A stretch of DNA of 49,499 nucleotides, taken from the IMG/VR virus record IMGVR_UViG_3300025312_000344, positions 1-49,499 of that record, one strand, 5' to 3'. Positions within the stretch are counted from its first letter, which is position 1. Every line of letters begins with the position of its first letter. This stretch comes from a virus. Position numbers and translations under genes: made by a program. Below, piece by piece: positions 475 through 46,393 of the stretch. The notes below the pieces were generated by a model, which saw only the letters and a program-made list of their open reading frames with translations, made no database searches and had not been told where the DNA came from.

Positions 475-646
475 TGTTTACGCCTAGACCAGACCGCGAC
501 AGGCTGAGAGCCCAGCGCTCACCCGGAACGGGAAACCGTGCTGCGATGCCAGCGGGCGGGCCAAACGGGGCGATAGACGACTGGTCGGGGCAACCCCTCC
601 CTCCTGCCCGTCCGGCTGCCGGCCCGCAGGGGGCGCCGGAGGCGAG

Positions 647-892
647 ATGAGCACCGTATCGAGCAGGAGAACCGAGATTGTCGTAGATGCGAACGACGGC
701 ACGTTCCAGGTGCATGTCGTCGGCCAAAATGTGGGGGCAGGCCAGTCATTCGTGTCGGATGTCAGGGTCAGGATGGCTGACCCGAACGGGGGCGGCATGA
801 CCCTACCCCACGCGAACACTCTTGGCACGCTCGAGCAGTTGCGAGACCTGATCGGCGAGGTGCTGGCGCTGGCGAAGCAGGAGGGTCTCTGA
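647..892 (+). CDS. Hypothetical protein, first gene of the left operon
   Basis: An 81-residue protein with no family I recognise. It has a polar N-terminus, a central Gly-rich segment and a short C-terminal helix-like stretch rich in Leu and Glu. The start is set by GGAGG at 638-642, four bases before the ATG. This Shine-Dalgarno overlaps the right arm of a small hairpin (TCCGG 611-615 with CCGGA 636-640), so translation might be structurally controlled. The stop shares one base with the next ATG (TGATG), which indicates translational coupling. Confidence 0.7.
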   Translation: MSTVSSRRTEIVVDANDGTFQVHVVGQNVGAGQSFVSDVRVRMADPNGGGMTLPHANTLGTLEQLRDLIGEVLALAKQEGL

Positions 893-2114: not shown

Positions 2115-2709
2115 GAGCAGGATCAGGCGGATGGCAGCCGAGATCCACCACCGGCTTGAGCGGGCCATCTGGAAGCCGGCGCGCGTGAGCCTGGACGACA
2201 TCGCCGCCACCAGCGCCGATTCGCCGCGGTCGGAGGAGGTAATCACTCCGGCCGAGGCCGTCAGGGCCATGCAGGCCGTGCTCGAGGCCATCGACGCCAT
2301 GAAGTATGCGTTGCTTGGGATGGTCGGTGCCGCTACAGCGCTCGAGTGCGACATGGACCTGCTGGCTAAGGAATTGCGCGAGACCCAGCGGAAAGCGGAC
2401 GACGACATGCGGAGCACGGCCGGCCAATGGCTGGCCCGCCGCCTTGGCCCGTGGGCCGTACCCGCCCGCCGCTGGCTCCCCATGTGGGCTGCCCGCCGCA
2501 TGGCACTGAGCGAGTGGCAGCGCATCCAGCCACCGACCCTAGGCCAGTGTCGGCACTGCGGTGCCTTCCAGCCGCTGGTGGGGATGGGCCACATGCAGAT
2601 CCTGCAATCGCACCGCGACAGACGCTATCCCATTCTCAGCGGCATTGTATGCCCCAACGTCTACGAGTGGGACACCGTCGAGGGAGAGTTCAAAGATGCC
2701 GCCGACTGA
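2107..2709 (+). CDS. Hypothetical protein with C-terminal Cys motif
   Basis: 200 residues, predicted mostly helical, with a C-terminal CRHCGAF...VCPN pattern that could bind zinc. The start at 2107 is preferred because GGAG (2097-2100) sits six bases upstream; an ATG at 2101 directly abuts it. It overlaps both neighbours. No recognised family. Confidence 0.6.
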   Translation: MDESRIRRMAAEIHHRLERAIWKPARVSLDDIAATSADSPRSEEVITPAEAVRAMQAVLEAIDAMKYALLGMVGAATALECDMDLLAKELRETQRKADDDMRSTAGQWLARRLGPWAVPARRWLPMWAARRMALSEWQRIQPPTLGQCRHCGAFQPLVGMGHMQILQSHRDRRYPILSGIVCPNVYEWDTVEGEFKDAAD

Positions 2710-3256
2710 GACACCGAAGACCCCCGAGATGCTGCGGGCGCTGGCGAATGAGGTAGAACGCAAGCATTCGCCTATCGCCAGTGACCAGTATCCGTGCATT
2801 GAGCCAGAAGATGTGCGTGCCCACGCCGACGCCTGGCAGGCCATCGAAGGCGCTCTGCTCGCGTTGACGCCGGGAGGCTCCGAGTTCGTGGGCAGCCCCC
2901 ATCGATGCCTGGAGTTCATCAAGGACCGCATGGCTACGGTGATGAAGGTCGCCGTGGCCAATAAGACCCTCGGGGTCGAGTTGGAAGCGGTGAAGGCGCG
3001 GGAGGAGGCGGCACGGCCAACACCGTGTATCTGGCGACCGCAGCCGCACGGGGATGAGACGGAGTATTGGGAGACGACCTGCGACAACGCTTACTGCTTC
3101 GAGATCGATGGTCCAACCGAAAACGACTACTCCTTCTGCCCCGGATGCGGCCATCCGATCCTTGTCGCCCCGCTTGTCATGACCGGAATGGAAGAGGGCG
3201 ATGTCCTATTCGACTTGGTGGCCGCCTCGGAGCCGCCGGGGGAGGAGGGGACGTGA
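2696..3256 (+). CDS. Phage zinc-ribbon protein; first gene of the junction-repeat array
   Basis: 186 residues. The second half carries a pattern common in phage hypothetical proteins: C-W, then YWETTC, AYCFE, an FCPGCGHPI ribbon and a hydrophobic end, likely one zinc site. The centre contains EAVKAREEA, encoded by a 27-base segment repeated almost exactly in another gene (3686-3712). The last ten residues, SEPPGEEGT preceded by A, are encoded by the junction repeat that also supplies the Shine-Dalgarno and GTG of the next gene. Function unknown. Confidence 0.65.
   Translation: MPPTETPKTPEMLRALANEVERKHSPIASDQYPCIEPEDVRAHADAWQAIEGALLALTPGGSEFVGSPHRCLEFIKDRMATVMKVAVANKTLGVELEAVKAREEAARPTPCIWRPQPHGDETEYWETTCDNAYCFEIDGPTENDYSFCPGCGHPILVAPLVMTGMEEGDVLFDLVAASEPPGEEGT
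2984..3010 (+). repeat. Direct repeat encoding EAVKAREEA (copy 1)
   Basis: A 27-base segment with one mismatch to 3686-3712. It contains CGGGAGGAGG, similar to the Shine-Dalgarno core of the junction repeats, and lies inside a zinc-ribbon gene. Confidence 0.7.
3221..3256 (+). repeat. Junction repeat J1 (C-terminus + Shine-Dalgarno + GTG start)
   Basis: A 36-base unit whose 3' part is GGGGGAGGAGGGGACGTGA. Read in one frame it ends the upstream gene with ASEPPGEEGT-stop; the same bases give a double GGAGG Shine-Dalgarno and the GTG start of the downstream gene, overlapping as GTGA. It is identical over all 36 bases to the copy at 4087-4122. Confidence 0.85.
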
Positions 3257-3426
3257 GAGGCCAGTGCTATCTTCGGGGATGGAGCCTCCTTGGTCTACTC
3301 AACACACTGCTCGGATGTGTATTCGCCGTCGTGCTAATACGCCACAGAGACTCGACGTCGCACAGGACCGTTCGGTGGTCGTGGGGAAAAGCCTCCGACT
3401 GGCCGCCGGGGGAGGAGGGGACGTGA
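3253..3426 (+). CDS. Small single-span membrane protein (array gene)
   Basis: 57 residues from the GTG inside the junction repeat. One hydrophobic segment (about residues 9-27), then a basic, Ser/Arg-rich stretch, and the array tail PPGEEGT. Predicted to sit in the membrane with a basic cytoplasmic end. Not recognised. Start and stop both lie inside junction repeats. Confidence 0.55.
   Translation: MRGQCYLRGWSLLGLLNTLLGCVFAVVLIRHRDSTSHRTVRWSWGKASDWPPGEEGT
3391..3426 (+). repeat. Junction repeat J2
   Basis: The last 25 bases (3402-3426) are identical to J1, while the 5' part differs. It ends one tiny membrane-protein gene and starts the next with GTGA. Confidence 0.85.
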
Positions 3427-3524
3427 AACACACTGACCTCTGGTGGGAGATTGCCCAAGCCGTAGTAGTTCTACTGGCCATGATTGCGCTTGCTGTCGCC
3501 GTGCCAATCTGGTTCCCGTCATGA
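3423..3524 (+). CDS. Tiny (33-aa) membrane protein (array gene)
   Basis: 33 residues from GTG in the junction repeat: a short acidic/polar start (about 10 residues) followed by one long hydrophobic helix and the ending IWFPS. It lacks the PPGEEGT tail because the next junction lies after its stop. Very short single-span phage proteins can be holin-like or modulate host membrane enzymes; no family recognised. Confidence 0.5.
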   Translation: MKHTDLWWEIAQAVVVLLAMIALAVAVPIWFPS

Positions 3525-3529
3525 TGGGC

Positions 3530-3547
3530 GGGGGAGGAGGGGACGTG
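3530..3547 (+). repeat. Junction repeat J3 (core only)
   Basis: Only the 18-base core GGGGGAGGAGGGGACGTG is kept. It follows the stop of the 33-residue gene and starts the next gene at the GTG (3545). Confidence 0.8.
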
Positions 3548-3892
3548 CGCGAGCATCGTCACAAATGGCACTTCAACCCGAACATGGACAACGAGAGAAG
3601 CGGGCCAACCCGCGTCGGCTTCATCTGCGACGACTGCCAAGAGCAGATGACGCTCACGAAGGCCGAGGCCATTCTTGACGGACGGGAAGCGGCGAAGGCG
3701 CGGGAGGAGGCGGGCAATCTGATGGCCGAGTGCCTTCGGAGCATGGACGGGGTAGACACGCAAGGACCTATCTTGGCGGCCACTATTCACTTCCTCCTCC
3801 GCGACGACGTGCGTGCCGCGGTTGACAAATGGCAGGCCGCCTCGGAGCCGCCTGGCACAGCCCGACAAAGCCTGGGGGAGGAGGGGACGTGA
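3545..3892 (+). CDS. Small protein with CxxC motif (array gene)
   Basis: 115 residues. Starts at the GTG of the junction core; in-frame ATGs at 3521 and 3524 are possible but would translate the Gly-coding repeat. It has a His-rich start, a CDDCQEQ motif, EAAKAREEA in the middle (shared with the gene at 2696) and a helical C-terminal half. The C-terminus is ASEPP, an inserted segment, then GEEGT, reflecting a junction interrupted by 21 bases. Possible zinc-binding; function unknown. Confidence 0.6.
   Translation: MREHRHKWHFNPNMDNERSGPTRVGFICDDCQEQMTLTKAEAILDGREAAKAREEAGNLMAECLRSMDGVDTQGPILAATIHFLLRDDVRAAVDKWQAASEPPGTARQSLGEEGT
3686..3712 (+). repeat. Direct repeat encoding EAAKAREEA (copy 2)
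   Basis: Matches 2984-3010 with one difference. The two copies lie in different genes of the same array, suggesting past recombination between them or a shared ancestor. Confidence 0.7.
3836..3892 (+). repeat. Junction repeat J4, interrupted by 21 bases
   Basis: GCCGCCTCGGAGCCGCC (3836-3852) is separated from the core GGGGGAGGAGGGGACGTGA (3874-3892) by 21 unrelated bases. The insertion keeps the reading frame of the upstream gene. Confidence 0.8.
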
Positions 3893-4122
3893 GCGAAAGC
3901 AGAGGGCAAATGCTCGCCGAGGCCAACGCCGAACTCCATGTCGCGAAGGAAGGACTGGAACAATCGCGGACATGGAAGCGCGAGGCTGAAAGAGCCTACG
4001 ATGATGCGATGGGAAGGTGGGTCAAGGCTCGCCTAAGAAGGGATGCCATCTTGACGGGGCTCCACCGTGCCCCATCGACACATCGTGCCGCCTCGGAGCC
4101 GCCGGGGGAGGAGGGGACGTGA
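3889..4122 (+). CDS. Small helical (coiled-coil) protein (array gene)
   Basis: 77 residues from GTG. Rich in Ala, Glu, Lys and Arg with heptad-like spacing over residues 5-55, predicting one long helix or coiled coil, then the array tail RAASEPPGEEGT. No Cys, no membrane segment, no recognised family. Confidence 0.6.
   Translation: MSESRGQMLAEANAELHVAKEGLEQSRTWKREAERAYDDAMGRWVKARLRRDAILTGLHRAPSTHRAASEPPGEEGT
4087..4122 (+). repeat. Junction repeat J5
   Basis: A 36-base unit identical to J1 (3221-3256). It ends the coiled-coil gene and starts the next with GTGA. Confidence 0.85.
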
Positions 4123-4361
4123 GCGACTGGACCCCGTTCCTCTCTGCGCTGTATCGGGGAGAGCCGCTGGCTTGCACCGCAGAACAATGGCATGGCGGGT
4201 TGCGGACGGCCGTCCAGAAGCACGCCGCCAAGATGGTCGATGGCGGTCAGGACATCTACGCGGTGATTGCTCTAGAGGAGGTACGACGAAACGACGCCGC
4301 GCATGGGAGCGGGATGTCTGGATTCTCGGAGCCGCCGGGGGAGGAGGCAGCCCATAACTGA
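4119..4361 (+). CDS. Small hypothetical protein (array gene)
   Basis: 80 residues from GTG in the junction repeat: a Trp-containing start, a helical core of about 45 residues, and a C-terminus of SEPPGEE followed by AAHN where the last junction copy degenerates. Not recognised. Confidence 0.6.
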   Translation: MSDWTPFLSALYRGEPLACTAEQWHGGLRTAVQKHAAKMVDGGQDIYAVIALEEVRRNDAAHGSGMSGFSEPPGEEAAHN

Positions 4362-7348: not shown

Positions 7349-8664
7349 CCGACCAGCAGGGGATCTGGATCGAGTACATGGACATCCGGGCACTCGTGCC
7401 CGATCCCGACAACCCGAAGGACCATGACGTCGGCGCCATCGACGAGTCCGTCAACGTGTTCGGCTTCGTCAACCCCATGGGGATCAACGAGGAGTCGGGC
7501 CTGGTCATCTTCGGGCATGGCCGGCTGAAGGACTTGCTGGGCAAGCAGGACCGAGGCGAACGCCCACCCGGCAATGTGCGGCTGGAGGATGGCCGATGGC
7601 TGGCGCCGGTGGTGCGCGGCGTCCACCTCGACGCCGAGAAGGCGAAAGCCTACGTCATCGCCGACAACCAACTGACATTCCTCGGCGGCTGGAATGAGCC
7701 GAAACTGCTGGCGAACCTGATCGAGTTGGCTGGGCCGGCCAAGATCGGCATCGGCCTGCGGGGCACGGGCTTCGCCCCAGACGACATCGACCGGCTTGAG
7801 CGCCTGCTCAACCCAAGCGATCACGACGACCCGATCCCCCACGTGGACCTAGCGGCCAAGTTGCAGAGCAAGTGGGGTACGGTGGTCGGGCAACTCTGGC
7901 GGGTTCCCTCCAAGGCCGTGGCCGGCGTCGAGCACCGCATCTTCTGCGGCGACTGCACCGTGCCCGAGCACATCGACGCTCTGATGGGCGACCGGACCGC
8001 CGCGCTGGTCGTCACCGACCCGCCCTATGGGATCGACCACATTAGGCACCGCAGCGGCAAGCGGACCCGGCCGCAGGAAGGCGATGAGGACTCGGAGCGG
8101 GAGCATTACCCGGCGATCGGTGGCGACGCCCTGACCGGGAAGGAGTTCGAAGAATTCATGACCGGCGCCTTCCGCAACGTGGTGCGGCATGTGGCCGACG
8201 ATGCGGCCTGGTACGTCTGGCACGCCGCCGACAACCGCGAAGCCGTCGCCCGGGCGATGGCTACCGTCGGCGTCCAGGTCCATCAGGAGATCGTGTGGAA
8301 GAAGGACAACTTCTACATGGGCCGCCAGGATTACCACTGGCAGCACGAGACCGCCCTGTACGGCTGGCGGGGCAAGCACAACTTCTACGGCGCCCGCAAT
8401 CAGTCGACCGTCTGGGAGATCCGCCGGGATAAGAAGATGATGCACCCCACCATCAAGCCGGTGGCTCTCTATATGATCCCGATGCGGAACAACACCCACC
8501 ACGGCGAGATCGTGCTCGACCCCTTCGGCGGCTCGGGGCCGGTGGTGCTGGGCGCTGAGCGGACTGGCCGGCTCGGCTACGCGCTCGAACTCTCGCCGGG
8601 CTACGTGGCGGTGATCCTCCAGCGGTGCCGGGACATGGGGCTGGAGCCTCTGCTAGATGGCTGA
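7345..8664 (+). CDS. ParB-fused DNA adenine/N4 methyltransferase
   Basis: 439 residues from a GTG (GTGA overlap). Residues 1-115 are a ParB/sulfiredoxin-like domain with NPKDH, GFVNPMGI and GHGR (57-60). Residues about 170-435 are an N6-adenine/N4-cytosine methyltransferase of beta architecture: DPPY (225-228) precedes the SAM-binding FGGSG (394-398), with MHPTIKP before it. Such fusions are frequent in phages and probably methylate phage DNA against restriction. The recognition sequence cannot be read from the protein. Confidence 0.9.
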   Translation: MTDQQGIWIEYMDIRALVPDPDNPKDHDVGAIDESVNVFGFVNPMGINEESGLVIFGHGRLKDLLGKQDRGERPPGNVRLEDGRWLAPVVRGVHLDAEKAKAYVIADNQLTFLGGWNEPKLLANLIELAGPAKIGIGLRGTGFAPDDIDRLERLLNPSDHDDPIPHVDLAAKLQSKWGTVVGQLWRVPSKAVAGVEHRIFCGDCTVPEHIDALMGDRTAALVVTDPPYGIDHIRHRSGKRTRPQEGDEDSEREHYPAIGGDALTGKEFEEFMTGAFRNVVRHVADDAAWYVWHAADNREAVARAMATVGVQVHQEIVWKKDNFYMGRQDYHWQHETALYGWRGKHNFYGARNQSTVWEIRRDKKMMHPTIKPVALYMIPMRNNTHHGEIVLDPFGGSGPVVLGAERTGRLGYALELSPGYVAVILQRCRDMGLEPLLDG

Positions 8665-8824
8665 CGCTCGGATCGATATCGACATGAGCAAGCCCTGCCC
8701 CCGGTGTGGCAAGATGGGGGCGGCCAACGGCGGTCCGTGCCTGAAGTGCATCCTGAAGGCACTCGACTCTGGCGAGATCCGTCCCGGCGGCCGCCGCCGC
8801 AAGAGATCCCGTAATGCCCAATGA
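8657..8824 (+). CDS. 55-aa zinc-ribbon protein
   Basis: 55 residues. CPRC (14-17) and CLKC (28-31) form a likely zinc knuckle, followed by a strongly basic end (GGRRRKRSR). It overlaps the methyltransferase gene by eight bases and the next small gene by eleven. It may bind nucleic acid, perhaps with the methyltransferase; that link is inference. Confidence 0.55.
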   Translation: MADARIDIDMSKPCPRCGKMGAANGGPCLKCILKALDSGEIRPGGRRRKRSRNAQ

Positions 8825-8912
8825 CATCGAGAGTCAGGGGTGCAACTGCTGTGGCTGCCTGACTGTGCTGGCGGTCATCGCAGTCTGTGTCCTTATGCTC
8901 GTGATAATCTAG
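8814..8912 (+). CDS. 32-aa Cys-rich single-span membrane protein
   Basis: 32 residues: a short polar start, a CNCCGC cluster just before one hydrophobic helix of about 19 residues, then stop. The stop overlaps the AGGAGG Shine-Dalgarno of the next gene. The Cys cluster at the membrane boundary could be lipidated or bind metal. It is short, but the close fit between neighbours supports it. Confidence 0.45.
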   Translation: MPNDIESQGCNCCGCLTVLAVIAVCVLMLVII

Positions 8913-8920
8913 GAGGCCCA

Positions 8921-9475
8921 ATGGAGAATTGGACCCACGCCCGGGCTGTTGCTTTTCAATCCTACGCCCAGCGGACCATCACCGCACTCGGGACCGTCGA
9001 TGCCGGAGCGGTGGCCGAGGCCGCATGGCACATGCACCGGGAGCAGCGCATGGGCGCGCACGTGTTCGTCATCGGCAATGGCGGCTCCTTCTCGACGGCC
9101 GAGCACATCGCCGCGGATCTCTCGAGATCGGGCGGGGTGAAGGGCGTCCGGGGGCCGGGCTACCTCGACTGGATCACCGGCCAGGCCAACGACTTCGGCT
9201 ACGAGAGCATCTTCCAGGCGTACCTCATGATGTGCGCCACGCCAGGCGACGTGTTGATCGCATTGTCCGTCAGCAAGCAGAGTCCCAACATCATCTTGGC
9301 CTGCCAGTATTGGCAGGAGCGCGGCGACGTCATCGGGTTGTGGGGGAGGCGATGGCCACAGGGGGCCGACAAGTTTGCCGACGTCAGTATATTTGTCGAC
9401 GACGACGACCCCAAGGTGGTAGAGACATGCCATCTGGCCATCGGCCAGGCTTGGGCCGACATGGTGAGCGCGTGA
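8921..9475 (+). CDS. gmhA: GmhA-like SIS-domain sugar phosphate isomerase
   Basis: 184 residues, close to the usual GmhA length (about 190). GNGGSFSTAEHIAADL (from residue 52) is the sugar-phosphate-binding loop and helix of GmhA, which converts sedoheptulose 7-phosphate to D-glycero-D-manno-heptose 7-phosphate; LIALSVSKQSPNI matches the second SIS phosphate-binding strand-turn. AGGAGG is five bases upstream of the ATG. It precedes the terminase genes, while an HddA-like kinase for the product lies at 23409. Another SIS-domain isomerase is possible. Confidence 0.8.
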   Translation: MENWTHARAVAFQSYAQRTITALGTVDAGAVAEAAWHMHREQRMGAHVFVIGNGGSFSTAEHIAADLSRSGGVKGVRGPGYLDWITGQANDFGYESIFQAYLMMCATPGDVLIALSVSKQSPNIILACQYWQERGDVIGLWGRRWPQGADKFADVSIFVDDDDPKVVETCHLAIGQAWADMVSA

Positions 9476-10359
9476 GCGACCGCCCCGACGAAGTCCTTGC
9501 CCGGCACCCCAACGCCCTGCAGCGCGTGACCATCGCGCAGGGCTTCTACGCTGAGCGGCTCCGGCCCACAGCCGACCGCACAGTGAAGTTCGTCTGGTAT
9601 CGGGAGGACTCCGGCGTCCCAGTCTGCTCGGCGAAGTCCCGGCGCTGCCGCAAGTGCGACCACTACTATCCCCTCGAGGAGAAGAAACTCACCGAGTGCC
9701 CGGAGTGCGGCGATCCGCGCTTCTGCCGGACGGGCGTAATCAAGCCCGGCGACCGCTGTCGGATGCACGGGGGCGGGGCAAACAAACTCGTCGGCTCGGC
9801 CAACCCGTCATTCAAGCACGGCAAGTACTCCCGCTACATGCCGGCCCGGCTGGCCGCCAAGTATCTCGAGTCCGCACGGGACCCCGAACTCCTCGCCAAT
9901 CGCCAGGAGATAGCGGTGCTCGATGCCCGGCTGGCCGAACTGCTGGGGCGGGTCGACACCGGGGAATCTAGCCGGCTGTTCTCGCAGGCCAGGGAAGCAT
10001 TCACGGGGTTTCGCAACGCGTTGGATCGCTCCGACAAGGAGACCATGCAGATCCACCTGCAGACGCTCGATGCGACGTTGGGGCGTGCGGTGGGTGACTA
10101 TGCGGCCTGGGACGATATCCGCCAGAGCCTTGAGACCCGCCGCAAACTCGTCGAGACCGAGATGCGTCGGCTGGAGAAGATGCAGCACTTCCACACGGCC
10201 GAGGAATTGCAGAGCCTGCTGACTGCCATCGCCCACATCGCCAAGCGCGTCATCTCAGACCCAAAGGTGCTGAATGAGTTCACCCTCGCCATTCTGGAAC
10301 TCGGTCAGCGAGACCCTAGCCGATCTCCTGCGGCCGACGTACTACCGCGAGGCGCGTGA
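9472..10359 (+). CDS. Putative terminase small subunit
   Basis: 295 residues from GTG (GTGA overlap). Two Cys pairs (CRKC, CPEC) form a zinc ribbon around residues 60-82. Then comes CRMHGGGANKLVG...FKHGKYSRY, the HGG/HGxYS motif typical of small-terminase-like proteins encoded directly before TerL in many phages. The rest is helical, possibly oligomerising. The assignment rests on the motif plus position; it would recognise phage DNA and load it onto the large subunit. Confidence 0.65.
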   Translation: MSDRPDEVLARHPNALQRVTIAQGFYAERLRPTADRTVKFVWYREDSGVPVCSAKSRRCRKCDHYYPLEEKKLTECPECGDPRFCRTGVIKPGDRCRMHGGGANKLVGSANPSFKHGKYSRYMPARLAAKYLESARDPELLANRQEIAVLDARLAELLGRVDTGESSRLFSQAREAFTGFRNALDRSDKETMQIHLQTLDATLGRAVGDYAAWDDIRQSLETRRKLVETEMRRLEKMQHFHTAEELQSLLTAIAHIAKRVISDPKVLNEFTLAILELGQRDPSRSPAADVLPRGA

Positions 10360-11719
10360 CTGGCCAGACGTCAGTCACTACTACAACGCTGAGCGCCATC
10401 GATTCTACAAGCCCCACAACCGGGACGAGGCCATAGCGCTTGTCGACATCATCCACAGGTACATCCTAGCCAAGGGCGGCGAGGGCGGCGGCAAGTCCGT
10501 GTTCGGCATCATCAAGGACCTAGAGCGGTTCCGCCGGGGCTGTCACGGGATCGTCGTCAGTCCAGACTTCGAACACTTCAAGCGGTCCCTATGGCCGGAA
10601 TTCCGCCGCTGGTGCCCGTGGGACATGGTCCATCCGAAGCACCGCTACCGCCAGGCACCGGAGTGGGAGCCGACCAAGCCCTTCATGTTGCTCTTTGTCA
10701 CGGGGGCCGTCGGCTACTTCGGCGGCATCGATAAGGAGATGGGCTGGGAAGGCCCGAACGTGAACTTCGCTCACTTCGACGAAGCCCGCCGCAAGGATAC
10801 CCCGCTGGCCCTGAAAGTGTTGGATGGCCGCGTCCGCATCCCCGGCCCGTTGGGCGACCCGCCGCAGATGTGGCTCACCACCACGCCCCGCAAGCATTGG
10901 CTCTTTGACTACTTCGGGCCACGCGCCCCAGGTGGCCAGACCGACACCTATGCTGCGTTCAAGAGGGACTCGCTCGTTTTTACCCTCATCACCAAAGAGA
11001 ACGAGGACAACTTGGAGCAGGACTACGCTGCCAAGCGGCGCCAGTCGCTGACGGAACAGGAGGCCCGGGTGCTCCTCGAGGCGCTATGGGAGGATCTCGA
11101 GGACACCTCGCACTTCCTGCCTTCGATGCTTCTCTGGGACCTTTGCCAGACGACCATCCCCCCACTCGACGCCTACACGCCGATCGTGGTGAGCCTAGAC
11201 GGGGCCGTTACCTACGACAACTTCGGCATCACGGCCGTGAGCCGCCATTGGGAAGAGGCCAGGCACGCGACCGACGTCGCCTTTCGCTTCGTCGAGGCCT
11301 GGACGGCTGACCAAGGCCCGATCAACTTCATGGGCACGGAGGACTATCCTGGCCCTGAGCGCCGCCTGCGCTGGCTCATCAACAACTTCAATGTCGTGCA
11401 GGTCTGCTTCGATCCAGCCCAACTGCACGACATGGCGCAGCGGCTCGGCGTGCCGGGCGACGGGCTGGCGTGGTTTTCCGAGTTCAGCCAGGCGGCGGAG
11501 CGGCTGGTGGCCGACAAGCGCCTGCTGGATCTGATCATCCAGCGCCGGGCGCAGCACGACGGGAATCCGAGCCTGCGGCAGCACATCGAGAATGCCGACA
11601 AGAAAGAGGACCCCGAGACCCGGCGGCTACGGATCGTCAAGCGGCACGAGGCATTGAAGATCGACTTGGCCGTGTCGGGCTCGATGGCTGCCCATCGCTG
11701 TCTGGAATTGAATCTGTAG
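10274..11719 (+). CDS. terL: Terminase large subunit
   Basis: 481 residues. ATPase domain: Walker A KGGEGGGKS (67-75), Walker B/catalytic FDE (168-170) and coupling motif TTTPRK (202-207). Nuclease domain: VVSLDGAVTYDNFG with Asp 309 as the first metal ligand, and an FDPAQ segment. It cuts and pumps DNA into proheads with the upstream small subunit and the portal. The ATG overlaps the upstream gene by 86 bases and no better start is seen. Confidence 0.9.
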   Translation: MSSPSPFWNSVSETLADLLRPTYYREARDWPDVSHYYNAERHRFYKPHNRDEAIALVDIIHRYILAKGGEGGGKSVFGIIKDLERFRRGCHGIVVSPDFEHFKRSLWPEFRRWCPWDMVHPKHRYRQAPEWEPTKPFMLLFVTGAVGYFGGIDKEMGWEGPNVNFAHFDEARRKDTPLALKVLDGRVRIPGPLGDPPQMWLTTTPRKHWLFDYFGPRAPGGQTDTYAAFKRDSLVFTLITKENEDNLEQDYAAKRRQSLTEQEARVLLEALWEDLEDTSHFLPSMLLWDLCQTTIPPLDAYTPIVVSLDGAVTYDNFGITAVSRHWEEARHATDVAFRFVEAWTADQGPINFMGTEDYPGPERRLRWLINNFNVVQVCFDPAQLHDMAQRLGVPGDGLAWFSEFSQAAERLVADKRLLDLIIQRRAQHDGNPSLRQHIENADKKEDPETRRLRIVKRHEALKIDLAVSGSMAAHRCLELNL

Positions 11720-15485: not shown

Positions 15486-18400
15486 TGGCCCGGCTGATGT
15501 CCTTCCCGTTCGAACTGAACACCATCGCCGCTTCTATGGATTGGCAAACATCGACGACTGGTACGCCAGTCATTGAGACCACAGACTTCCGCTCCGGCGC
15601 AGCGGCGCTCAGGATCAACAGCGCTGCTGGCGCGGAGAACATCCAGCACATCTTCCGCACGACGCAAGGACCGTGTTGGACTCGGTTCTACTTCAAGGTG
15701 GTGGCTGGCGCTACCGGCAACGACGTTACGATCATTGCAACTCTGAATGGTGCTACGGCCCGGGTAGGGGTTCTTATCAATGCTGACGAGACACTGGAGT
15801 TCTGGAACCTGGAGGACTCCGCCCAGGTTGGAGCCAGTTCGTCAGCGATCAGTTTAGACACTTGGTATCGTCTTGAATACCTCATTGACTCGACCACATT
15901 GGCCTCCACCGCTATCGAGGCTAGGCTGTACGCGGCCTCGGACGAAAGCACCCTGCTGTGGAATCCATCGGGGACGATTAACTTGGCCCTCAACCCCGAC
16001 CGCTTTCGTCTGGGCATCCCTTCGGCCGATGCCACGTTGGACATCATCTACGAAGATGGAGCGATCAACGACAACAGCGGTAGTTTCGAGAACTCCTGGC
16101 CGGGCGAAGGCGAGCAGATCATGCTCCGGCCGAGCGCCGCGGGCGACAACGCGGATTGGACGCGGGGCGGAACGGACAGCGGGGCCAACTGGTCGCAGGA
16201 AGAGGAGGCCCCACCCGATGACGTGACGACCTACGTTCAGAGCAATACCTCCGGTCAGATCGACGACTACAACCTGGACGCGACGCCCGCGGCGATGGCC
16301 TCCGATGATGTCATCAACTGCGTTCAGGTGGGCGTGCGGTTTGCGATCAGCGGCGCGGGTGGCGCGGACCCGGACTTCGTGCTGCGCATCAAGGCCTCGT
16401 CCGGGGGCACGGTCGAGGAAAGCGCCGCCCTTTCTGGTGCTGGCGACACCTCCTACCAGTCTTACAAAATAGCCACGCCTAGGCAATATGCGCTGACGCT
16501 GTATGACTTGCCCGGCGGGTCCGCGACGGCGTGGACAAAAGCCGACTTAGACGCGGCGCAGGTCGGCATACGCGAGACGATCACGGATACCCACTTCGTC
16601 CGGGTATCGGCGCTGTGGGTGGTGGTAGACCACAAGCCAGCGGCCGCTGGCGGCCAGACCATCCCGGTCGGCCAGGCGACCGAGGCCGACACCGCCCAGG
16701 CCATCACGCTGCTTCGCACCTACCCGATCACCCAGGTAACCGAGACCGATCTCGCCCAGGCCATCAGTGCGGTGCGGGCCTATGCGGTGGGCCAGGCCAG
16801 CGAGACAGATCTCGCCCAAGCCGTCGTGGTCCTTCGCACGTACCTGATCGGGCAGGCGTTCGAGACCGATCTCGCTCAGGACATCGGCCAGCCCGCAAAG
16901 GTCAATCAGGTCCTCGAGACGGATCTCGCTCAGGCGATTACGGTTGTCAAGGCGCTGTTGCTGGGCCAGGCTACCGAGGCTGATCTCGCGCAGGCCATCG
17001 CCGTTCTCAAGTCCCTGACTGTAGGACAGATCCAGGAGACGGACCTCGCCCAGGCCATCGCCGTTCTCAAGTCCCTGACTGTAGGACAGGTCCAAGAGGC
17101 TGATCTGGCCCAGGCCATCACAGTCGTCAGGAGCCGTCTGCTCGGGCAAGCCAGCGAGACCGACGTTGCCCAGGCCATCACGGTGCTCAAGGCGGCGCTG
17201 ATCGGCCAGGCGAGCGAGACAGACCTCGCCCGCGCCATCACGATATTGCGGACGGTACTAGTTGCTCAGGTCCAGGAGACGGACCTCGCCCAGGCCATCA
17301 CTGCCCTGCTGGGGCGTGTGGTTCAGCAGGTGCAGGAAACGGACTTGGCGCAGGCCATCACAGTCGTGGCTGGGGCTGCTCCCATCCCGCCGCCCGCGCC
17401 GCCCGCGCCTCCGATGGTGGTGGTGGGCCGCGTCCGTCGGCGCCGGGAAGAGCCGTCGGCTCCAATACGGCGGCTGATCGACGAACTGTTCGAGCCAGCC
17501 CGGCAGGCCGAGTTACGGCGGATCGAGGAATTGCTTCGAGAGGACGATGAGGAGATCCCGCCGCCGGCCTCCCGGCCATCCCCGAAGGGGCTGGGTGAAG
17601 TCGGTCTCGAGGACCTGATCCGGGCGTCCAAGGGATACGAGAATCTGGTGGCCGACATCGCCGTGGCGGTGACCAAGGCCATCAACCTTCCGGGCCTGAA
17701 GGAGTATTTGAAGGTTCAGGATGCCCGAGTAGCGGCCATTGAGAAAGGACCTACGGCCCCGGACCGGGGTCCTTCGGTTGATGCTCTAGCCCCGGACCGG
17801 GGTCCTTCGGTGGATGCTCTAGCCCCGGCCGAGGCAGCACGCCTCTACCAGGAGATGGTCGGCGAGATGATGGGCCTGATCGACCTTGACGTCCCACCGC
17901 CGACGATGACAGCAGAGCGGCGGAAGGAGATCCTCTCGAAGCCGGGCATTCACGCGACCCAGGTCGCCATCCTCAAGCAGACCCGTGCCCGGCCGCTCCG
18001 AACCAAGTACGAGAAGCGCCTCGCCGCCCTGATCCGGCAGTTGGCGACCGGCGAATTGAACGCGGCCGAGTTCATGGACTCGGCTTTCCAGGCGACCGTT
18101 GATGCCTATTGGGACGCGTTCGGGGATGGACGGGACGCTGGCGGGGTGGAGGAGGCGGTCGAGGTCTACTTCCACGAAGGCGGGATCGTGGCGGCCCAGG
18201 TCGTGTGGGCCGGCCAGAGCCTGCAGAAGATCATCGCCCTGCTGCCGGCTGGCCACAGCGATGGGGACCTGCAGGAGGCGCTCCGTCGGGTGCCGACCAT
18301 GGCATCGGCCATCGAGGTACTCTGGTACGAGGGTCTGGGGACGGCTGCCGATGACCCTCTGTACGAGTGGATCATCGGGAGCACGAAGGAGCACTGCACA

Positions 18401-22842: not shown

Positions 22843-23412
22843 ATGAACAGTCCCCTCGAGGGCCAGGACTATCTGGCCCACCTCGCACAATTTGACGACT
22901 GGAACGCTCGAGCATTCCTCGCCATCATCGTGGCGTTCGGCGCGCCCATGACTTATCTGGACGTCGGATGCGGCACAGGTGCCATGATCCGTATGGCTCG
23001 GCGGCTAGGTATCGACGCCGTCGGCCTGGACATCCTAGCCCCGCCGAACGCGGATCTCCACGGCATCATGAAGGTGGACGTTTCCCGCGAGTTCAATATC
23101 CTTCGGAAGTTCGCCCTGCTCACCTGCATCGAGGTGGCCGAGCACATCCCGGAGGATCAGGGAGGCATGCTGATCCGCAATATCGCCGAGCACGCCGCCG
23201 AAACATGTCTGCTCATCTGGACGTCCGCCGGCCCCGGCCAGGGGGGGGAGAACCATCAGACGCTCGTTCCCGGCTACGTCTGGCGGTCGATGCTCCATGA
23301 CCACGGGCTACACTACAACGAGGCCTGGACCCACCGGCTACGGCTCATCTGGCAGGCCATCGGCATGCCCATGATGTGGCTGCCGGATAACCTACAGGTG
23401 TTCGACCGATGA
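22843..23412 (+). CDS. SAM-dependent methyltransferase
   Basis: 189 residues. YLDVGCGTGAMIRMA (SAM motif I) followed by VGLDI (motif II) and LLTCIEVAEHIPE (post-motif acidic region) define a class I methyltransferase. The ATG directly follows a small hairpin (AGGCC 22826-22830 with GGCCT 22838-22842) whose loop holds GGGAG. First gene of the sugar island; it overlaps the kinase gene by ATGA. It probably methylates a sugar or small molecule rather than DNA, as no DNA-specific domain is seen. Confidence 0.75.
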   Translation: MNSPLEGQDYLAHLAQFDDWNARAFLAIIVAFGAPMTYLDVGCGTGAMIRMARRLGIDAVGLDILAPPNADLHGIMKVDVSREFNILRKFALLTCIEVAEHIPEDQGGMLIRNIAEHAAETCLLIWTSAGPGQGGENHQTLVPGYVWRSMLHDHGLHYNEAWTHRLRLIWQAIGMPMMWLPDNLQVFDR

Positions 23413-24401
23413 TCATCACCCGGACGCCGCTGCGCGTGTCCTTCATCGGTGGCGGGACGGATCTGCCGGCCTGGTACGAGAACCATGGCGAGGGGCAGGT
23501 GTTCGGCGCCACCATCGGATTGTACGTCTACGTGATCGTCAGCCCCCACTGGAATCCGCACCGCTACCGGGTGGCCTACAGCCGCACCGAGGACGTCGAC
23601 AACCTCGACTATGTGAGCCACGGGATCATCCGTAATGCTCTGCGCCGGGCTGGCCTGACCCTTGGGGGCGTGGAGATCCACACGATCGCCGACATCCCTG
23701 GCCAGGGATCTGGGCTTGGATCGAGTGCCGCCGTCGCCGTCGGGACGCTGAAGGCGCTATTCGACTATCAGAAGCGCTACCTGCACTTTCAGGACCTGGC
23801 GGCCATGGCGGCCGCCATCGAGATCGAGGACCTTCGAACGGGTGCCGGCAAGCAGGACCACTACATCGCCGCCTACGGTGGGGTGAACCACTTCCGGTTC
23901 AGTAATGCCGATCCGCTCGTCAGCGGGGGGGGCGGCTATGTCGACGAGAAGATCCGTGATCATTGGTCGAAATGGATGCCGCTGTTTTCCACGGGCATCC
24001 ATCGCCACGCCGAGCCAATCCTCAAGGAGACCGGGAAGCGCATCAAGGCAGGTATGGCGACGGGCGCCCTGCAGCGCACGCTGGCCATGGTCGAGCCGAT
24101 GAAGTTGGCGCTGCTCTCCGGCGAGATGGAGGCGGTTGGCGAGATGCTCGACAAGGCGTGGAAGCACAAGCAGGCAGCCAACCCTGATGCCATGCCGGCC
24201 GGTGCCGTCCAGATGTACCGGAGGGCACTCGAGGCCGGGGCGCTGGGTGGCAAGTTGTGCGGCGCCGGCGGCGGAGGCTACTTGCTGCTGGTGGTACCGC
24301 CCCGGAAGTGGCAGGCCGTGGCCGACGTTGTGGGCCAGCAGCCCGTGCGGGTGCCCTACGGGGTTGGCGGAAGCACCACCATCTTCGTGGAGCAGCGATG
24401 A
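23409..24401 (+). CDS. hddA: HddA-like heptose 7-phosphate kinase (GHMP kinase)
   Basis: 330 residues, the normal HddA length. The start has TRTPLRVSFIGGGTDLPAWY, the sugar-binding start of HddA-type GHMP kinases. Motif 2 is IPGQGSGLGSSAAVAV (96-111), the ATP-binding loop. Motif 3 is GGKLCGAGGGGYLL near residue 290. HddA phosphorylates D-glycero-D-manno-heptose 7-phosphate at C1. With the GmhA-like protein encoded at 8921 this gives the first two steps to GDP-heptose. Galactokinase-like members are a less likely alternative. Confidence 0.8.
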   Translation: MIITRTPLRVSFIGGGTDLPAWYENHGEGQVFGATIGLYVYVIVSPHWNPHRYRVAYSRTEDVDNLDYVSHGIIRNALRRAGLTLGGVEIHTIADIPGQGSGLGSSAAVAVGTLKALFDYQKRYLHFQDLAAMAAAIEIEDLRTGAGKQDHYIAAYGGVNHFRFSNADPLVSGGGGYVDEKIRDHWSKWMPLFSTGIHRHAEPILKETGKRIKAGMATGALQRTLAMVEPMKLALLSGEMEAVGEMLDKAWKHKQAANPDAMPAGAVQMYRRALEAGALGGKLCGAGGGGYLLLVVPPRKWQAVADVVGQQPVRVPYGVGGSTTIFVEQR

Positions 24402-25051
24402 CCGCCTGGCCGACCATCGGGGTCGCCCTGCTGACTTACCGTCGCACCGACCTCGCTCTGCGGACTGTGCGGGCCATGATCGGCAACCTCGTCTATCAGG
24501 GGCCGCTGGTCTGGTATATCGCCGACGACGGATCGGAAGATCAGCACATGAGGGCATTGCTCGAGGTGCTGGGCGGGCATCTGATCGGCTTCCACAGCGA
24601 GCGTGTGGGACCGGGGCCGTCCTGGAATCGGGCGGTGGAGGCAGTCATGAATGCGACGCCCTTCGTCCTATGGCTCGAGGACGATTGGGAGTTGCGGCGC
24701 CCGCTGAATATCGAGCCATACGTTGACCTGCTGATGAACAACGGCCAGGTGGGGATGGTGCGGACGGGAGGCCTGCCCATCGGCCTGCTGGCGGAGAGCG
24801 TGGGCTACGGCGGCGTCCACTACCTGAACATCCTGAAGGACCGCCAGTACTGCTACTCGGGCAATCCAAGCCTGCGGCACTCTCGTCACTTTGCCGCCTA
24901 TGGGGGCTACCCGACCGACCAGCGCCCGGCCGGCGAGTGCGAGGTGTTCCACGACCACTTCGTCCGCACCCGGCCTGGACCAGAGGTCTGGTGGCCTGTC
25001 GACATCGGGGGCTGGGGGATCTTCGGCCACATCGGGACCGAGAAGGCATAG
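24398..25051 (+). CDS. GT2-like glycosyltransferase
   Basis: 217 residues from ATG (ATGA overlap). IGVALLTYRRTDLALRTVRAM and WYIADDGSED are the GT-A/GT2 nucleotide-sugar-binding start; LWLEDDWEL carries the acidic metal-binding motif in DxD position. Shorter than full GT2 enzymes but with a C-terminal region containing Trp-rich loops. Part of the sugar island. Confidence 0.65.
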   Translation: MTAWPTIGVALLTYRRTDLALRTVRAMIGNLVYQGPLVWYIADDGSEDQHMRALLEVLGGHLIGFHSERVGPGPSWNRAVEAVMNATPFVLWLEDDWELRRPLNIEPYVDLLMNNGQVGMVRTGGLPIGLLAESVGYGGVHYLNILKDRQYCYSGNPSLRHSRHFAAYGGYPTDQRPAGECEVFHDHFVRTRPGPEVWWPVDIGGWGIFGHIGTEKA

Positions 25052-25059
25052 GAGGCATC

Positions 25060-25224
25060 ATGTCGAACGAACTCGCCGCGCTGATCATGGGACTGCTGAT
25101 CGCCGGGCTGGGCTACGTTCTGGGCCGGCAGGTAGGCTGGGCAGCCCATCGGCGGGCTGAGCAAGACGAGCGAGACCAAGCCAGCGCCAACATTGACCGG
25201 GCCATCCGTGAGTGGTTCGGATGA
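25060..25224 (+). CDS. 54-aa single-span membrane protein
   Basis: 54 residues after GGAGG. One N-terminal hydrophobic helix with glycine (about residues 5-24), then a basic and charged helical tail. It overlaps the epimerase gene by ATGA. Could be a membrane anchor or holin-like peptide; no family assigned. Confidence 0.5.
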   Translation: MSNELAALIMGLLIAGLGYVLGRQVGWAAHRRAEQDERDQASANIDRAIREWFG

Positions 25225-26123
25225 ACATCCTGCTGACGGGAGCGAGGGGATTCATCGGCCGGCATACCATGGCGGACCTGCTGGCCGCCGGCCACACGGT
25301 CCGGCCGCTGGACCGGAAGCCAGATCCCGACATGCCCGGCGGCGGCATCTGGTACGACCTACGGGATGCGGACCGGCTCGGGCTGGCCTTCGAAGGCCGA
25401 CGTTACGATGCGGTGATCCACCTAGCCGCCAGCGCCAGCCTGCAGCACAGCATCGACGATCCGGCCGACGATGCCGAGCACAACATCCTCGGGACGATCA
25501 ACTTGCTGGAGGCCTGCAAGCGACACGGCATGGGGCGCTTCGTGTTCGCCTCGACATCGGCCGTCTATTCCCCCTATGGGGATCTCCCCTACCAGGAGGA
25601 CGACCCGAAAGGGCCGCAGAGCGCCTACGGGGTCAGCAAACTGGCTGGCGAGGACTACGTCCGGCTGGCTGCCGTATCGGGCCGAGGCATGAGCATAGCC
25701 ATCCTGCGGTACGGGAACGTCTACGGGCCAGGGCAGAAGGCTGTCGGGGAGAATGCGTTGGTGGCCCGGGCGCTGGATCACATCTACTTCGGGACGCCCT
25801 TCGTCATCAACGGCGACGGCGATCAGACGCGGGACTGGATTCACGTGCGGGACGTGGCTCGAGCAAACCGACTGGCGGCTGAGCGGCAGGTTCCGATCGT
25901 GGCCAACATCGCCACCGGCGAAGGCAAGTCGGTGAATTGGGCCCTTGGCGTGCTGGCGGCCGCCGCCGGCTGGCAGGACATTTTCAAGACGCACGGGCCG
26001 GCGAAGCCAGGCGAACTCCGGGACGTGCGATTACACTGCGCGCAGGCGAGCATCGGACTTGGCTTCGTGGCAGAGATCCCGGCGGCAGAGGGCTTGACGG
26101 ATACGGCTGTCGCATGGGCCTGA
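25221..26123 (+). CDS. NAD-dependent sugar epimerase/dehydratase (extended SDR)
   Basis: 300 residues. GARGFIG (7-13) is the NAD-binding Gly motif. The catalytic Tyr-Lys pair is YGVSK (136-140), with STSAVY (111-116) contributing the Ser. The pattern (HLAASAS, NILGTINLLEAC, RYGNVYGPGQ) matches GalE-like nucleotide-sugar epimerases. The exact substrate is unknown. Located between a GT2-like and a multi-domain glycosyltransferase. Confidence 0.85.
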   Translation: MNILLTGARGFIGRHTMADLLAAGHTVRPLDRKPDPDMPGGGIWYDLRDADRLGLAFEGRRYDAVIHLAASASLQHSIDDPADDAEHNILGTINLLEACKRHGMGRFVFASTSAVYSPYGDLPYQEDDPKGPQSAYGVSKLAGEDYVRLAAVSGRGMSIAILRYGNVYGPGQKAVGENALVARALDHIYFGTPFVINGDGDQTRDWIHVRDVARANRLAAERQVPIVANIATGEGKSVNWALGVLAAAAGWQDIFKTHGPAKPGELRDVRLHCAQASIGLGFVAEIPAAEGLTDTAVAWA

Positions 26124-33292: not shown

Positions 33293-35794
33293 ATGGCCTT
33301 CCCAACCGTAGGCGTGCTGGCCATCGTCGAAGGCATGAACTCCTTCCGCCGCGACATGGACGAAGTCAAGCGGCGGATGGAGCAGTTGGGCCAGACGAGC
33401 CAGAGCGTAGCCAGGCAGACCGGAACCCTCTCGACCGCCATGGGCGGCGTGGGCGGCGCTCTATCCGCCATCGGGACCATCGCCGCAGGCATCCTAGCCG
33501 CCGGAGCCATTCGTGCGATCGCCAACGAGATCAAGCAGATGGCGTCGGAGGCCTTTGACGCCGCCGCCCAACTGCAGAAACTCGAGATCCAGTTCAACAC
33601 GCTGGTGGCCCGCGAGTTGGCAGCCTCCAACAGTACCGAGGGCTTCGCTGACTACCTGCGGGAAGCCGGGGCGGCCTCCGACTACCAGGTCCAGCGCTTC
33701 ATCAACCTGCGGAACTCGCACGACAACTTCATCAAGAAGATGGCGGAGGTCGACCAGCACACGGCGGCCGGGCGATACGCCTTCGAGCAGTACGGGAATC
33801 GACTCAAGTGGGTCGACAGCCAGATCCGCGAACTCATTCCAGGCTTCGACGGGCTGGACAACCGCCTGCAGCAGTCCGCCTTCGGGACCTACGACTTCTC
33901 CGAGGCCCTGAAGGAGGCCGCCGCGCCAGCCCGGGAACTCCTGAACTGGTCGCTCCAGATGTCCGTGACCACCCCCTTCCGGCCGCAGACCATCAGTAGC
34001 GCCATCAGCCTGTCCATGGCCATGGGTTTCCAGACCAAGGAGATCCGACGGCTGATCACGGCGACGGGCGACTACACCGCCGGCATGGGGCTGAGCGACG
34101 AGGTCATGCAGCGCATCCTGTACAACTTCGGCCAGATGAAGGCGGCCGGCAAGGTGATGGGAACCGAACTGCGAGACCTCGCCCGCGGCGCCATGATGCC
34201 TGTGGCGACCGTGCTCGAGATCATGCAGCGCAACATGGGGCTGACCAACATCTCCCTCGACCAGTTCCGCAAGAACGCCGCCGCAGGCCAATACGACGTC
34301 GACCAATTCGTGGAAGCCTTCGTGCAGATGGCCGAGAGCGACTTCGCCGGGGCCATGAAGCGCATGTCGGGCACGTGGGCTGGGGTGACTCAGGACGTGC
34401 AGGACTTCATCAACGTGATCCTCGGCGCCAGCGTGCTTCGGCCGATCCTCGACAGTCTATCCAAGGGGCTCCGGGGCTTGATCGACAGCATGACGGATGA
34501 AGAGACGGCCGCCAAACTGGAGACCACCCGCGGTCTGATGAGCAGTATCGTCACCAGCGTCGGAGGCATCCTCACAGCCCTGTCGGGGATGGCTGGATTG
34601 AAGATCGAGCCGGGGGGGTTCCTTCAGTCGTTCAATGATTTCCTCCGGGGCATCGCCATTCCGATGGCCCAACTGCGAGCGCTTCTGCGAGGCGATTTCA
34701 GTTTCGACGAGTGGCTACAGCGCGTTGGGTTCACGGAGGCGCAGAGCGAGAGCATCAAGGGATTTCTGCACCTGTTTGACCCCGTGATTCAGGGCCTACA
34801 GATGCTGTACGATGCGGCCGTCGGACTTGGCCCCACGATCAAGCAGACTATCGACGACCTGGTCGCGGCAGTTTCGCCGGTCGTTGCGATCGCATTACCG
34901 GGTGTCCTCGAGAACCTCGGCGAGATCTTTGGCGGGCTGGGGAAGTCGCTGGCGGCCACCGGACCAGGCATCTTGGACATTCTCGGCAAGGTAGTGGCCT
35001 TGCTCGCCACGGCGGCCATCGGCACGCTGGATCTCTTCGTGACTAGTCTTGCTACCCTGCTCGACATCGCCAACGGCGATTGGGCTGGTGCCGCAGAAAA
35101 CGTCGGGGGGTTCTGGGACAGGTTCCTCGAATCTGCCCTGTCGCTCGCTGGCGAGACGCCCGAGTCGTTCGCCGAGAGTTGGTCGTGGGTGTGGGAAGCG
35201 GCGGGCATCATCTCTGACAGGTTCTGGTCGAATCTGCAGGAGACGTGGGCGGCGAATGACGACATGCTCCTGCTCATAGTCCAGACCATGATCGCCAACT
35301 ACTCGGAGCGGCTCAAGACGGATTGGGCAACCTTCCTTGAGGACATGCTGGGAGGCATCGATGCCTGGGCCGGCGTCTGGGCCAATCTCGAGACCATCAG
35401 GCTCGAACTGGTCAAGAGGGGTGGGGCCTTGATCCAGGGGTTCTGGGACGGTGCGAAGGCCAAGGTCGCCGCGTTCATGACCTGGCTCAGCGGAAAGATC
35501 AGCGATATCCTCGCTCTGTGGGACAAACTGCTTGATATCGGTTCGCCATCCCGAGTGATGGTGGGCATCGGGAAGAACATGATGGCTGGCCTGCAGAAGG
35601 GCGTTGGCGAGGGGATGCGTGGCACCCAGGCGGCCATGACCGCGGCGGCTGGCCAGCAGGCAGCGGCCCTGCCCGTGATGGCCGGCGGCGGGGCGTCGAC
35701 ATACAACCGCACGATCAACATGGGCGGCGTCTACAATCAGGGCATCGGGGGCGGAGTGTTCGACCGGGCCATGCGTGACTGGCTGGGAGCCTAG
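33293..35794 (+). CDS. Tail tape measure protein
   Basis: 833 residues. A typical start with a basic coiled coil (FRRDMDEVKRRMEQLGQ), Gly/Ala-rich hydrophobic segments (around 50-75, 420-440, 520-590), and a predominantly helical middle. At about 0.15 nm per residue this suggests a tail of roughly 125 nm. ATG follows the preceding stop directly. The C-terminus is Gly/Ala-rich without a peptidase motif. Confidence 0.85.
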   Translation: MAFPTVGVLAIVEGMNSFRRDMDEVKRRMEQLGQTSQSVARQTGTLSTAMGGVGGALSAIGTIAAGILAAGAIRAIANEIKQMASEAFDAAAQLQKLEIQFNTLVARELAASNSTEGFADYLREAGAASDYQVQRFINLRNSHDNFIKKMAEVDQHTAAGRYAFEQYGNRLKWVDSQIRELIPGFDGLDNRLQQSAFGTYDFSEALKEAAAPARELLNWSLQMSVTTPFRPQTISSAISLSMAMGFQTKEIRRLITATGDYTAGMGLSDEVMQRILYNFGQMKAAGKVMGTELRDLARGAMMPVATVLEIMQRNMGLTNISLDQFRKNAAAGQYDVDQFVEAFVQMAESDFAGAMKRMSGTWAGVTQDVQDFINVILGASVLRPILDSLSKGLRGLIDSMTDEETAAKLETTRGLMSSIVTSVGGILTALSGMAGLKIEPGGFLQSFNDFLRGIAIPMAQLRALLRGDFSFDEWLQRVGFTEAQSESIKGFLHLFDPVIQGLQMLYDAAVGLGPTIKQTIDDLVAAVSPVVAIALPGVLENLGEIFGGLGKSLAATGPGILDILGKVVALLATAAIGTLDLFVTSLATLLDIANGDWAGAAENVGGFWDRFLESALSLAGETPESFAESWSWVWEAAGIISDRFWSNLQETWAANDDMLLLIVQTMIANYSERLKTDWATFLEDMLGGIDAWAGVWANLETIRLELVKRGGALIQGFWDGAKAKVAAFMTWLSGKISDILALWDKLLDIGSPSRVMVGIGKNMMAGLQKGVGEGMRGTQAAMTAAAGQQAAALPVMAGGGASTYNRTINMGGVYNQGIGGGVFDRAMRDWLGA

Positions 35795-45892: not shown

Positions 45893-46393
45893 CTACGTGA
45901 GCCACCACGCCTCCACGGCCGCCAGCCAGTCGTAGCCCCCGAACAGGCCCGACCAGGACACCTCGAGACACTCGGGCAGACTATGGTATCGGAACCTGAT
46001 GGCCGGCCAAGGGGAGTCCGGTGTAATCCGCAATAGCCGCATGACCTGGGATGGCCGCTGCTCGACGGCGAACCAGCAGATCGCGCCGGCGGCGGCCAGT
46101 TGCCGGAGCGTATCGAACTGATGCTCGCGCTCCTTCGGCAGGCGCCAGGACATGTCCTGCTCGCTCTTGGCGTCGAAGGCTACGAACCGGCCCTTCACAC
46201 AGCCGTAGTAGTCCGGGGCTGCGATGCGGGACGTCGGAGTGAACTGCTTCTGGTGCGTGGCCTTGTTGATGCGCCAGCGGCCGGAGATCCCGTTGTGCTG
46301 CACCCACACCTTCCGCCGGTTCCAGTAGAGGACGTGCGTGAAGGCCAGATACTCCTCAAGACTCTCGCCCGCTGCTTGGCTTAACCTTGTCAA
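45893..46393 (-). CDS. RecU-like Holliday junction resolvase
   Basis: 166 residues from TTG 46393, selected because AGGGAGG lies five bases upstream. VWVQHNGISGRW..., APDYYGCVKGRFVAFDAK (PD-(D/E)xK core) and the following LPKEREHQFDTLRQL helix match RecU-type resolvases, which cut four-way DNA junctions during recombination or before packaging. The overlap with the upstream gene is 38 bases. Confidence 0.75.
   Translation of the reverse strand: MTRLSQAAGESLEEYLAFTHVLYWNRRKVWVQHNGISGRWRINKATHQKQFTPTSRIAAPDYYGCVKGRFVAFDAKSEQDMSWRLPKEREHQFDTLRQLAAAGAICWFAVEQRPSQVMRLLRITPDSPWPAIRFRYHSLPECLEVSWSGLFGGYDWLAAVEAWWLT

Follow-up and report, generated by a model that had tools for sequence, protein, structure and literature searches.

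A 36-nt Repeat at the Borders of Small Accessory Genes in Uncultivated Tailed Phages: A Probable Translation-Coupling Signal and Homology Patch for Gene Exchange

The Phage and Its Array of Small Genes

The stretch of DNA analysed here (the window) is a virus record of IMG/VR comprising 49,499 bases and was assigned to a tailed phage on the basis of PHROGs and Pfam matches, including a terminase (10274-11719) and a tape measure protein (33293-35794), both from PHROGs, and a lysin with GH25/M23/SH3 domains (Pfam). A TerL search for cultured relatives retrieved only three Streptomyces phages with 25% identity, and an Rfam search of the window gave no match. Sugar genes recognized with Pfam are dispersed among the structural genes (8840-9475 and 22843-29101) and encode a SIS-domain protein (phosphoheptose isomerase-like in our reading), a GHMP kinase, an NAD-dependent epimerase and a glycosyltransferase fusion, which possibly modify the virion or a host glycan. 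A LytR-CpsA-Psr family protein is encoded near the lysin (43075-44184; Pfam E 5e-17), and its Thr/Pro-rich, lipoprotein-like N-terminus resembles those of Chloroflexota lipoproteins, a weak hint to the host. Degenerate internal repeats, with units like 'VGQ..ETDLAQAI.V', occur in a 1032-aa ORF (16668-17367).

Upstream of the terminase, in the accessory region, lies an array of tiny genes separated by a short repeat. The exact 18-mer core of this repeat, GGGGGAGGAGGGGACGTG, occurs five times on the plus strand, at 3238, 3408, 3530, 3874 and 4104 (3238-4121), and is absent from the opposite strand of the window; the chance expectation is 0.23 matches even when 3 mismatches are allowed, and none of the shuffles reached five. 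All the features of the array are on the plus strand, and gene starts were assigned by inspection. The first gene, g0 (2699..3256, an ORF delimited by inspection), belongs to a family of unknown function (PHROG 10312, E 5.8e-7) and ends in the tail AASEPPGEEGT, its last codons being the first junction (3221..3256). This junction is a full 36-nt element, GCCGCCTCGGAGCCGCCGGGGGAGGAGGGGACGTGA, carrying a Shine-Dalgarno sequence (SD) and a GTG start codon that overlaps the TGA stop of g0. It is followed by gene A (3253..3426; 57 aa, ending WPPGEEGT, no Pfam match) and by junction 2 (3391..3426), the 5' part of which has partly diverged. Gene B (3423..3524; 33 aa, hydrophobic) stops before the next junction and thus has no tail; junction 3 (3513..3548) retains the conserved 3' half only (SD and GTG), with no stop/start overlap. 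Gene C (3545..3892; 115 aa, CxxC-containing) ends in AASEPPGTARQSLGEEGT, a split junction (AASEPPG-TARQSL-GEEGT) with its 5' part at 3835-3855, and junction 4 (3857..3892) has a conserved 3' half. Gene D (3889..4122; 77 aa) leads to junction 5 (4087..4122), again a full 36-nt element and identical to junction 1, and the array closes with gene E (4119..4361; 80 aa, ending SEPPGEEAAHN). Stop and start codons overlap as GTGA at four of the five junctions, the other having a 20-nt gap.

A sequence-only reading of the window had described six junctions, each appending SEPPGEEGT to the upstream protein and starting the next gene at GTG. Five copies are exact cores with such a start, whereas the sixth (4320-4356) is truncated, consisting of TCGGAGCCGCCGGGGGAGGAGG followed by unrelated sequence with no GTG start codon; the full tail occurs in the window only on g0 and D, B having none and A, C and E altered forms. 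Two copies reported as identical and 866 nt apart are indeed so, over 37 nt (3221-3257 and 4087-4123). Weaker similarity to the junction is seen at further gene overlaps of the window (606-650, 1261-1296 and 1874-1893); GGCCCGCAGGGGGCG precedes ATGA/GTGA at two of the other overlaps, and a SEPPYD end with GAGCCGCC lies directly before ATGA at 1890.

The junctions do separate five small genes, A-E, described as unrelated, but modules are common to g0 and C: a stretch of 29 nt with 97% identity that encodes EAxKAREEA (EAVKAREEA in g0, 2983-3011; EAAKAREEA in C, 3685-3713), and a 'DVRAxxDxWQA' motif. These modules, together with the tandem, same-orientation arrangement, could be taken to mean that one ancestral small gene and its end were duplicated repeatedly and that the bodies diverged past recognition. 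Such a history is most improbable in view of the lack of homology among A-E beyond the tail and short modules, the swapped order of the modules in g0 and C, and the presence of the same joint between unrelated genes of other phages; moreover, an unconstrained 36-mer would not remain identical amid total divergence.

Occurrence in Other Genomes

The 19-mer core and segments of the 5' half of the element served as queries against IMG/VR; because the patterns were exact, diverged copies are under-counted. This search for the core elsewhere, suggested by the earlier reading, yielded seven further phage contigs: G002 (L007), G003 (L008), G004 (L009), G005 (L010), G007 (L013), G009 (L015) and G019 (L063). 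The 36-nt element is found nearly unchanged in at least eight phages, with different flanking genes, and the sequence of junction 1 is identical in G002 and G004. Another contig, L006, matches the window at 99.95% over 12 kb; it belongs to the same phage and was not counted as independent. The contigs are uncultivated and mostly fragments; the G007 copy lies at a contig end, while the two ends of G003 are identical over 127 bp, so that this 70.9-kb contig probably represents a complete genome. Many structural proteins are common to the window, G003 and G007 (~24-92% identity per best segment), whereas G002, G004, G005, G009 and G019 have little or nothing else in common with the window; in blastn comparisons of the window with G004 or G005 the junction is the only shared DNA.

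No copy of the element was present in the terminase relatives G011, G016, G018 and L019-L024, and no credible match to the repeat appeared in cultured phages or plasmids. The 3' half alone recurs in unrelated high-GC phages as an ordinary SD plus GTGA (50 contigs with a degenerate pattern), but the 36-nt form was found in this phage group only; chance or a plain SD was rejected as the explanation. Three contigs (L012, L014, L016) were left out of the family as they have the 19-mer GAGCCGCCGGGGGAGGAGG and not the rest of the element, and the matches in L062, L064, L065 and L112 are apparently due to chance. Prokaryote genomes gave two chance-like 19-mer matches, one in a Burkholderiales contig with ordinary chromosomal genes and the other at an ordinary gene overlap of a Verrucomicrobia contig. 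A separate set of phage contigs (L066, L073, L081, L087 and L099) displays a conserved CCCCGCCGAGGCGGGGC hairpin immediately 5' of GGAGGAGGAGGGGACGTGA, that is, a joint made of a terminator-like hairpin, SD and start in unrelated phages.

Structure of the 36-nt Element

When 18 copies from seven contigs are aligned on the start codon, information spans positions -32 to +3 and is at background level from +4 on, which delimits a sharply bounded element of 36 nt. Its 3' half (GGGGGAGGAGGGGACGTGA) is near-invariant among the aligned copies, while the 5' half (GCCGCCTCGGAGCCGCC) is kept in many copies and lost from others. The first GGAGG lies 7 nt 5' of the GTG, a normal distance for a strong SD. 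That the SD encodes the last residues of the upstream gene is a consequence of any 4-nt gene overlap; what is unusual about the element is that it is repeated and that the 17 nt preceding the SD are conserved. At the joints no stable or shared RNA fold was detected (z-scores of -0.52 to +2.2 relative to shuffles), nor were inverted repeats, including terminal ones, around the joint. On the coding strand there was no promoter- or terminator-like match at the joints, the totals being near shuffled levels (sigma-70-type promoters only).

The conservation is at the DNA level. Under the codon usage of the window, the chance that a second AASEPP is written in the same codons is 0.019, and that of six further identical copies 4.5e-11 if the copies are independent. 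At 16322 in G005, two stop codons of the upstream gene precede the joint, and 27/28 nt of the 5' part are nevertheless conserved. Codon identity and this untranslated copy imply that the identity of the element reflects either recent common origin or selection on DNA or RNA. Since the 5' part is conserved also where it is untranslated, the SEPPGEEGT tail is probably for the most part a by-product of the position of the joint. The constant frame and the translation of most copies would suit a C-terminal tag, with AASEPPGEEGT serving localisation, degradation or partner binding in a set of accessory proteins, but a functional tail is hardly credible given that conservation covers codons as well as residues, that gene B and the G005 16583 gene stop before the joint (the G005 copy being the untranslated one with 27/28 nt in its 5' part), and that the tail sequence varies between copies.

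The 5' 25 nt of the joint also recur in G005 (L047, 9711-9735, plus strand) within a stretch devoid of long ORFs, ~35 nt after a promoter-like TTGACA-17-TACAAT and immediately after a 13-bp hairpin. No credible Rfam match was obtained for this region, which possibly represents a small RNA or a decoy.

Constant Junctions and Varying Genes

An alignment across phages had been proposed as the test of the array, with constant junctions and variable genes as the expected outcome. This is what the seven other contigs display, and the opposite arrangement, with the same genes in the same order and diverged junctions, was seen in none of them. Over 114 between-contig pairs of copies the junction is on average 76% identical, compared with 28% in the 60 nt upstream and 27% in the 60 nt downstream; in 20 such pairs at least 33 of the 36 positions of the junction are identical while the flanks are at most 40% identical.

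Members of the same gene family can also have different joints. The G007 orthologue of gene D retains the upstream joint, within which the G007 contig begins, but its product terminates in AEGGT and the next gene is different. In three gene families the joint is present in one phage and absent in another. The small CxxC protein gene of the window at 8657..8824 (plus strand) follows a methyltransferase with no junction, whereas its G002 homologue (83% nt identity over 94 nt) starts at the 36-nt joint and ends in a different tail; likewise, the G005 16583 and G019 17814 genes have the joint and their G003 homologues (60361, 51% aa identity, and 60125, 53%, respectively) do not. Near-identical phages differing by one cassette were not found, the sole near-identical contig, L006, being the same phage.

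The occurrence of several copies per phage, and occasionally outside gene joints (G005 9711-9735 and window 4320), could also be produced by a selfish short repeat, a very short MITE/REP-like element that inserts at gene ends and carries SD and start incidentally. This is quite improbable, as terminal inverted repeats are absent around the joint, no target duplication was seen and, in the genes that lack the joint, the upstream neighbour differs as well; the latter implies that the exchanged tract is longer than 36 nt.

A Second Joint and Shared Modules

A second joint of ~112 nt is present in G002 (L041, 25109-25222), G019 (L110, 18230-18340) and G009 (L051, 7753-7861), being 92-94% identical across the three contigs with side genes that differ in all of them. 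Its 5' part codes for the C-terminal residues of one protein (PSTVGHPEAKP...GLGKGMGDDRDPS.LQRG) and its 3' part supplies the 11 initial codons of the gene that follows (MTE[TI]RA[AV]YNVG); thus, it behaves like the 36-nt joint although the sequences are unrelated. In addition, an internal 'EAVKAREEA' stretch of 28-34 nt is common to small genes of different kinds in the window, G002 and G019, and recurs in weaker form in G004. The tail of gene D (RAPSTHR-AASEPPGEEGT) resembles the start of joint 2 and then joint 1, and this composite tail and the split joint of gene C may be scars of exchange.

Selection on a regulatory site could in principle maintain the identity of the shared 36-mer equally well. 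The repeat would then be a signal of the kind known as SAS in mycobacteriophages, recognised by a protein or RNA of the phage or its host that regulates how a number of accessory genes are translated, and the genes would differ because the regulon differs between phages. Its position at the start codon, the strong conservation of the 3' half and the conservation of bases beyond those pairing with the anti-SD, an argument also made for SAS in cluster K phages (PMC3203893), agree with this proposal, and the 5' part that lies untranslated behind a promoter-like sequence in G005 could act as a decoy. We nonetheless consider a regulatory site unlikely as the main explanation: the 5' half, present in many copies and lost in others, looks like a drifting shared tract and not a binding site, the stable or shared fold is missing (z-scores as above), and joint 2 behaves alike with an unrelated sequence.

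Comparison with Known Systems

The start-associated repeats of mycobacteriophages (SAS/ESAS) had been named as the nearest analogue. They are described in cluster K (PMC3203893) and also in cluster EF Microbacterium phages (PMC7302621), the SAS being a 13-mer (GGGATAGGAGCCC and GGGAAAGGACCCC, respectively) that mostly precedes ATG, mostly lies in gaps > 50 bp and is in some cases accompanied by upstream inverted repeats (PMC3203893, PMC7302621). Both the SAS and the joint are over-conserved repeats that coincide with the ribosome binding sites of several non-structural genes from different families, and in both the upstream stop codon can fall within the repeated sequence. The joint differs in its length of 36 nt, in its core (GGGGGAGGAGGGGACGTGA, which corresponds to neither SAS consensus), in the predominance of GTG, in the lack of inverted repeats and in its location mostly inside the upstream gene, with overlaps or at most 20 nt in the window where the SAS has its gap.

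Closer precedents are found in two other systems. In lambdoid phages, boundary or linker sequences (Susskind and Botstein, 1978; Clark et al., 2001, for HK620; cited in PMC3029335) are described as short sequences conserved at module borders, between which genes vary, and as proposed sites of homologous recombination. The joint shares with them, as described there, a constant border with side genes that differ between related phages; unlike them, a single 36-mer marks many borders of the same genome and serves at once as gene end, SD and next start. For T4-type phages, PeSLs (promoter plus stem-loop cassettes) have been put forward as mediators of shuffling (Arbiol, 2010; Comeau, 2014; cited in PMC4503421). 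By that secondary account they too are expression signals that double as homology for shuffling small accessory genes, but they are transcription signals between genes whereas the joint is a translation signal inside coding sequence, and early promoters and stem-loop terminators were not detected at each joint (coding strand; sigma-70-type promoter scan). The imperfect inverted repeats of integron attC sites have no counterpart here, with no inverted repeats and RNA folds no stronger than those of shuffles, and the only integrase-type gene seen is a phage-type tyrosine recombinase in G002, none being present among the window proteins scanned (a subset of genes). Judged from its sequence, the joint resembles SAS and appears to work like lambdoid boundary sequences and PeSLs, of which it would be a variant.

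Proposed Mechanism and Significance

The explanation that we regard as probable is that the 36-nt repeat is a translation-coupling signal which doubles as a homology patch for cassette exchange. A group of uncultivated tailed phages would use the repeat as the standard joint between genes of the accessory region, and the 3' half of the repeat provides a strong SD and a GTG start that overlaps the upstream stop. Owing to this SD and the overlapping GTG, each tiny gene is probably translated by coupling to, or re-initiation from, the preceding gene. As 36 nt are near-identical at many borders in many phages, the same tract would offer homology for joining unrelated genes, and small genes could be joined, swapped, gained or lost at the joint with the translation signal retained. 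In line with this proposal, conservation ends exactly at GTGA, translation signals are retained and gene families occur with and without the junction. The cassette system proposed from the window alone thus stands in its constant junctions and varying genes, with recombination as the likely route by which they spread.

A length of 36 nt is short for general recombination, yet in principle enough for annealing enzymes. Exchange may accordingly proceed by phage-encoded annealing recombination, and RecT-like and RecU-like proteins occur in the group. The putative RecT-like protein of G002 (Pfam E 2.4e-4, just below the gathering score; PHROG 2780, E 7e-4) has a homologue in G003 (36% identical); a RecT-like protein was found in these relatives and not in the window, which is partial. 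The window encodes a RecU-type Holliday-junction resolvase (45893..46393, minus strand; Pfam RecU, E 5.3e-12; PHROG 843, E 5.8e-13), a candidate recombination partner.

A more far-reaching version of this proposal, which we offer tentatively and hold to be possible rather than probable, is an integrase-free system of standard parts. Tiny genes would pass from one phage to another, even where the phages are otherwise unrelated, as exchangeable units coupled in translation, using at least two joints (36 nt and ~112 nt) and shared modules, and annealing recombination would assemble new gene sets and fusions.

How phages swap small accessory genes without breaking their expression is a long-standing question. 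According to PMC3029335, a shared sequence cannot be detected at the majority of mosaic borders, and for this reason they are usually ascribed to illegitimate recombination. In the phages described here the border sequence is visible, short and repeated, with an edge exactly at the translation start, and this makes the idea of boundary sequences directly testable. The data suggest that a standard joint is where these phages exchange their small accessory genes, and the joint also provides a search key for the accessory genes of uncultivated phages.
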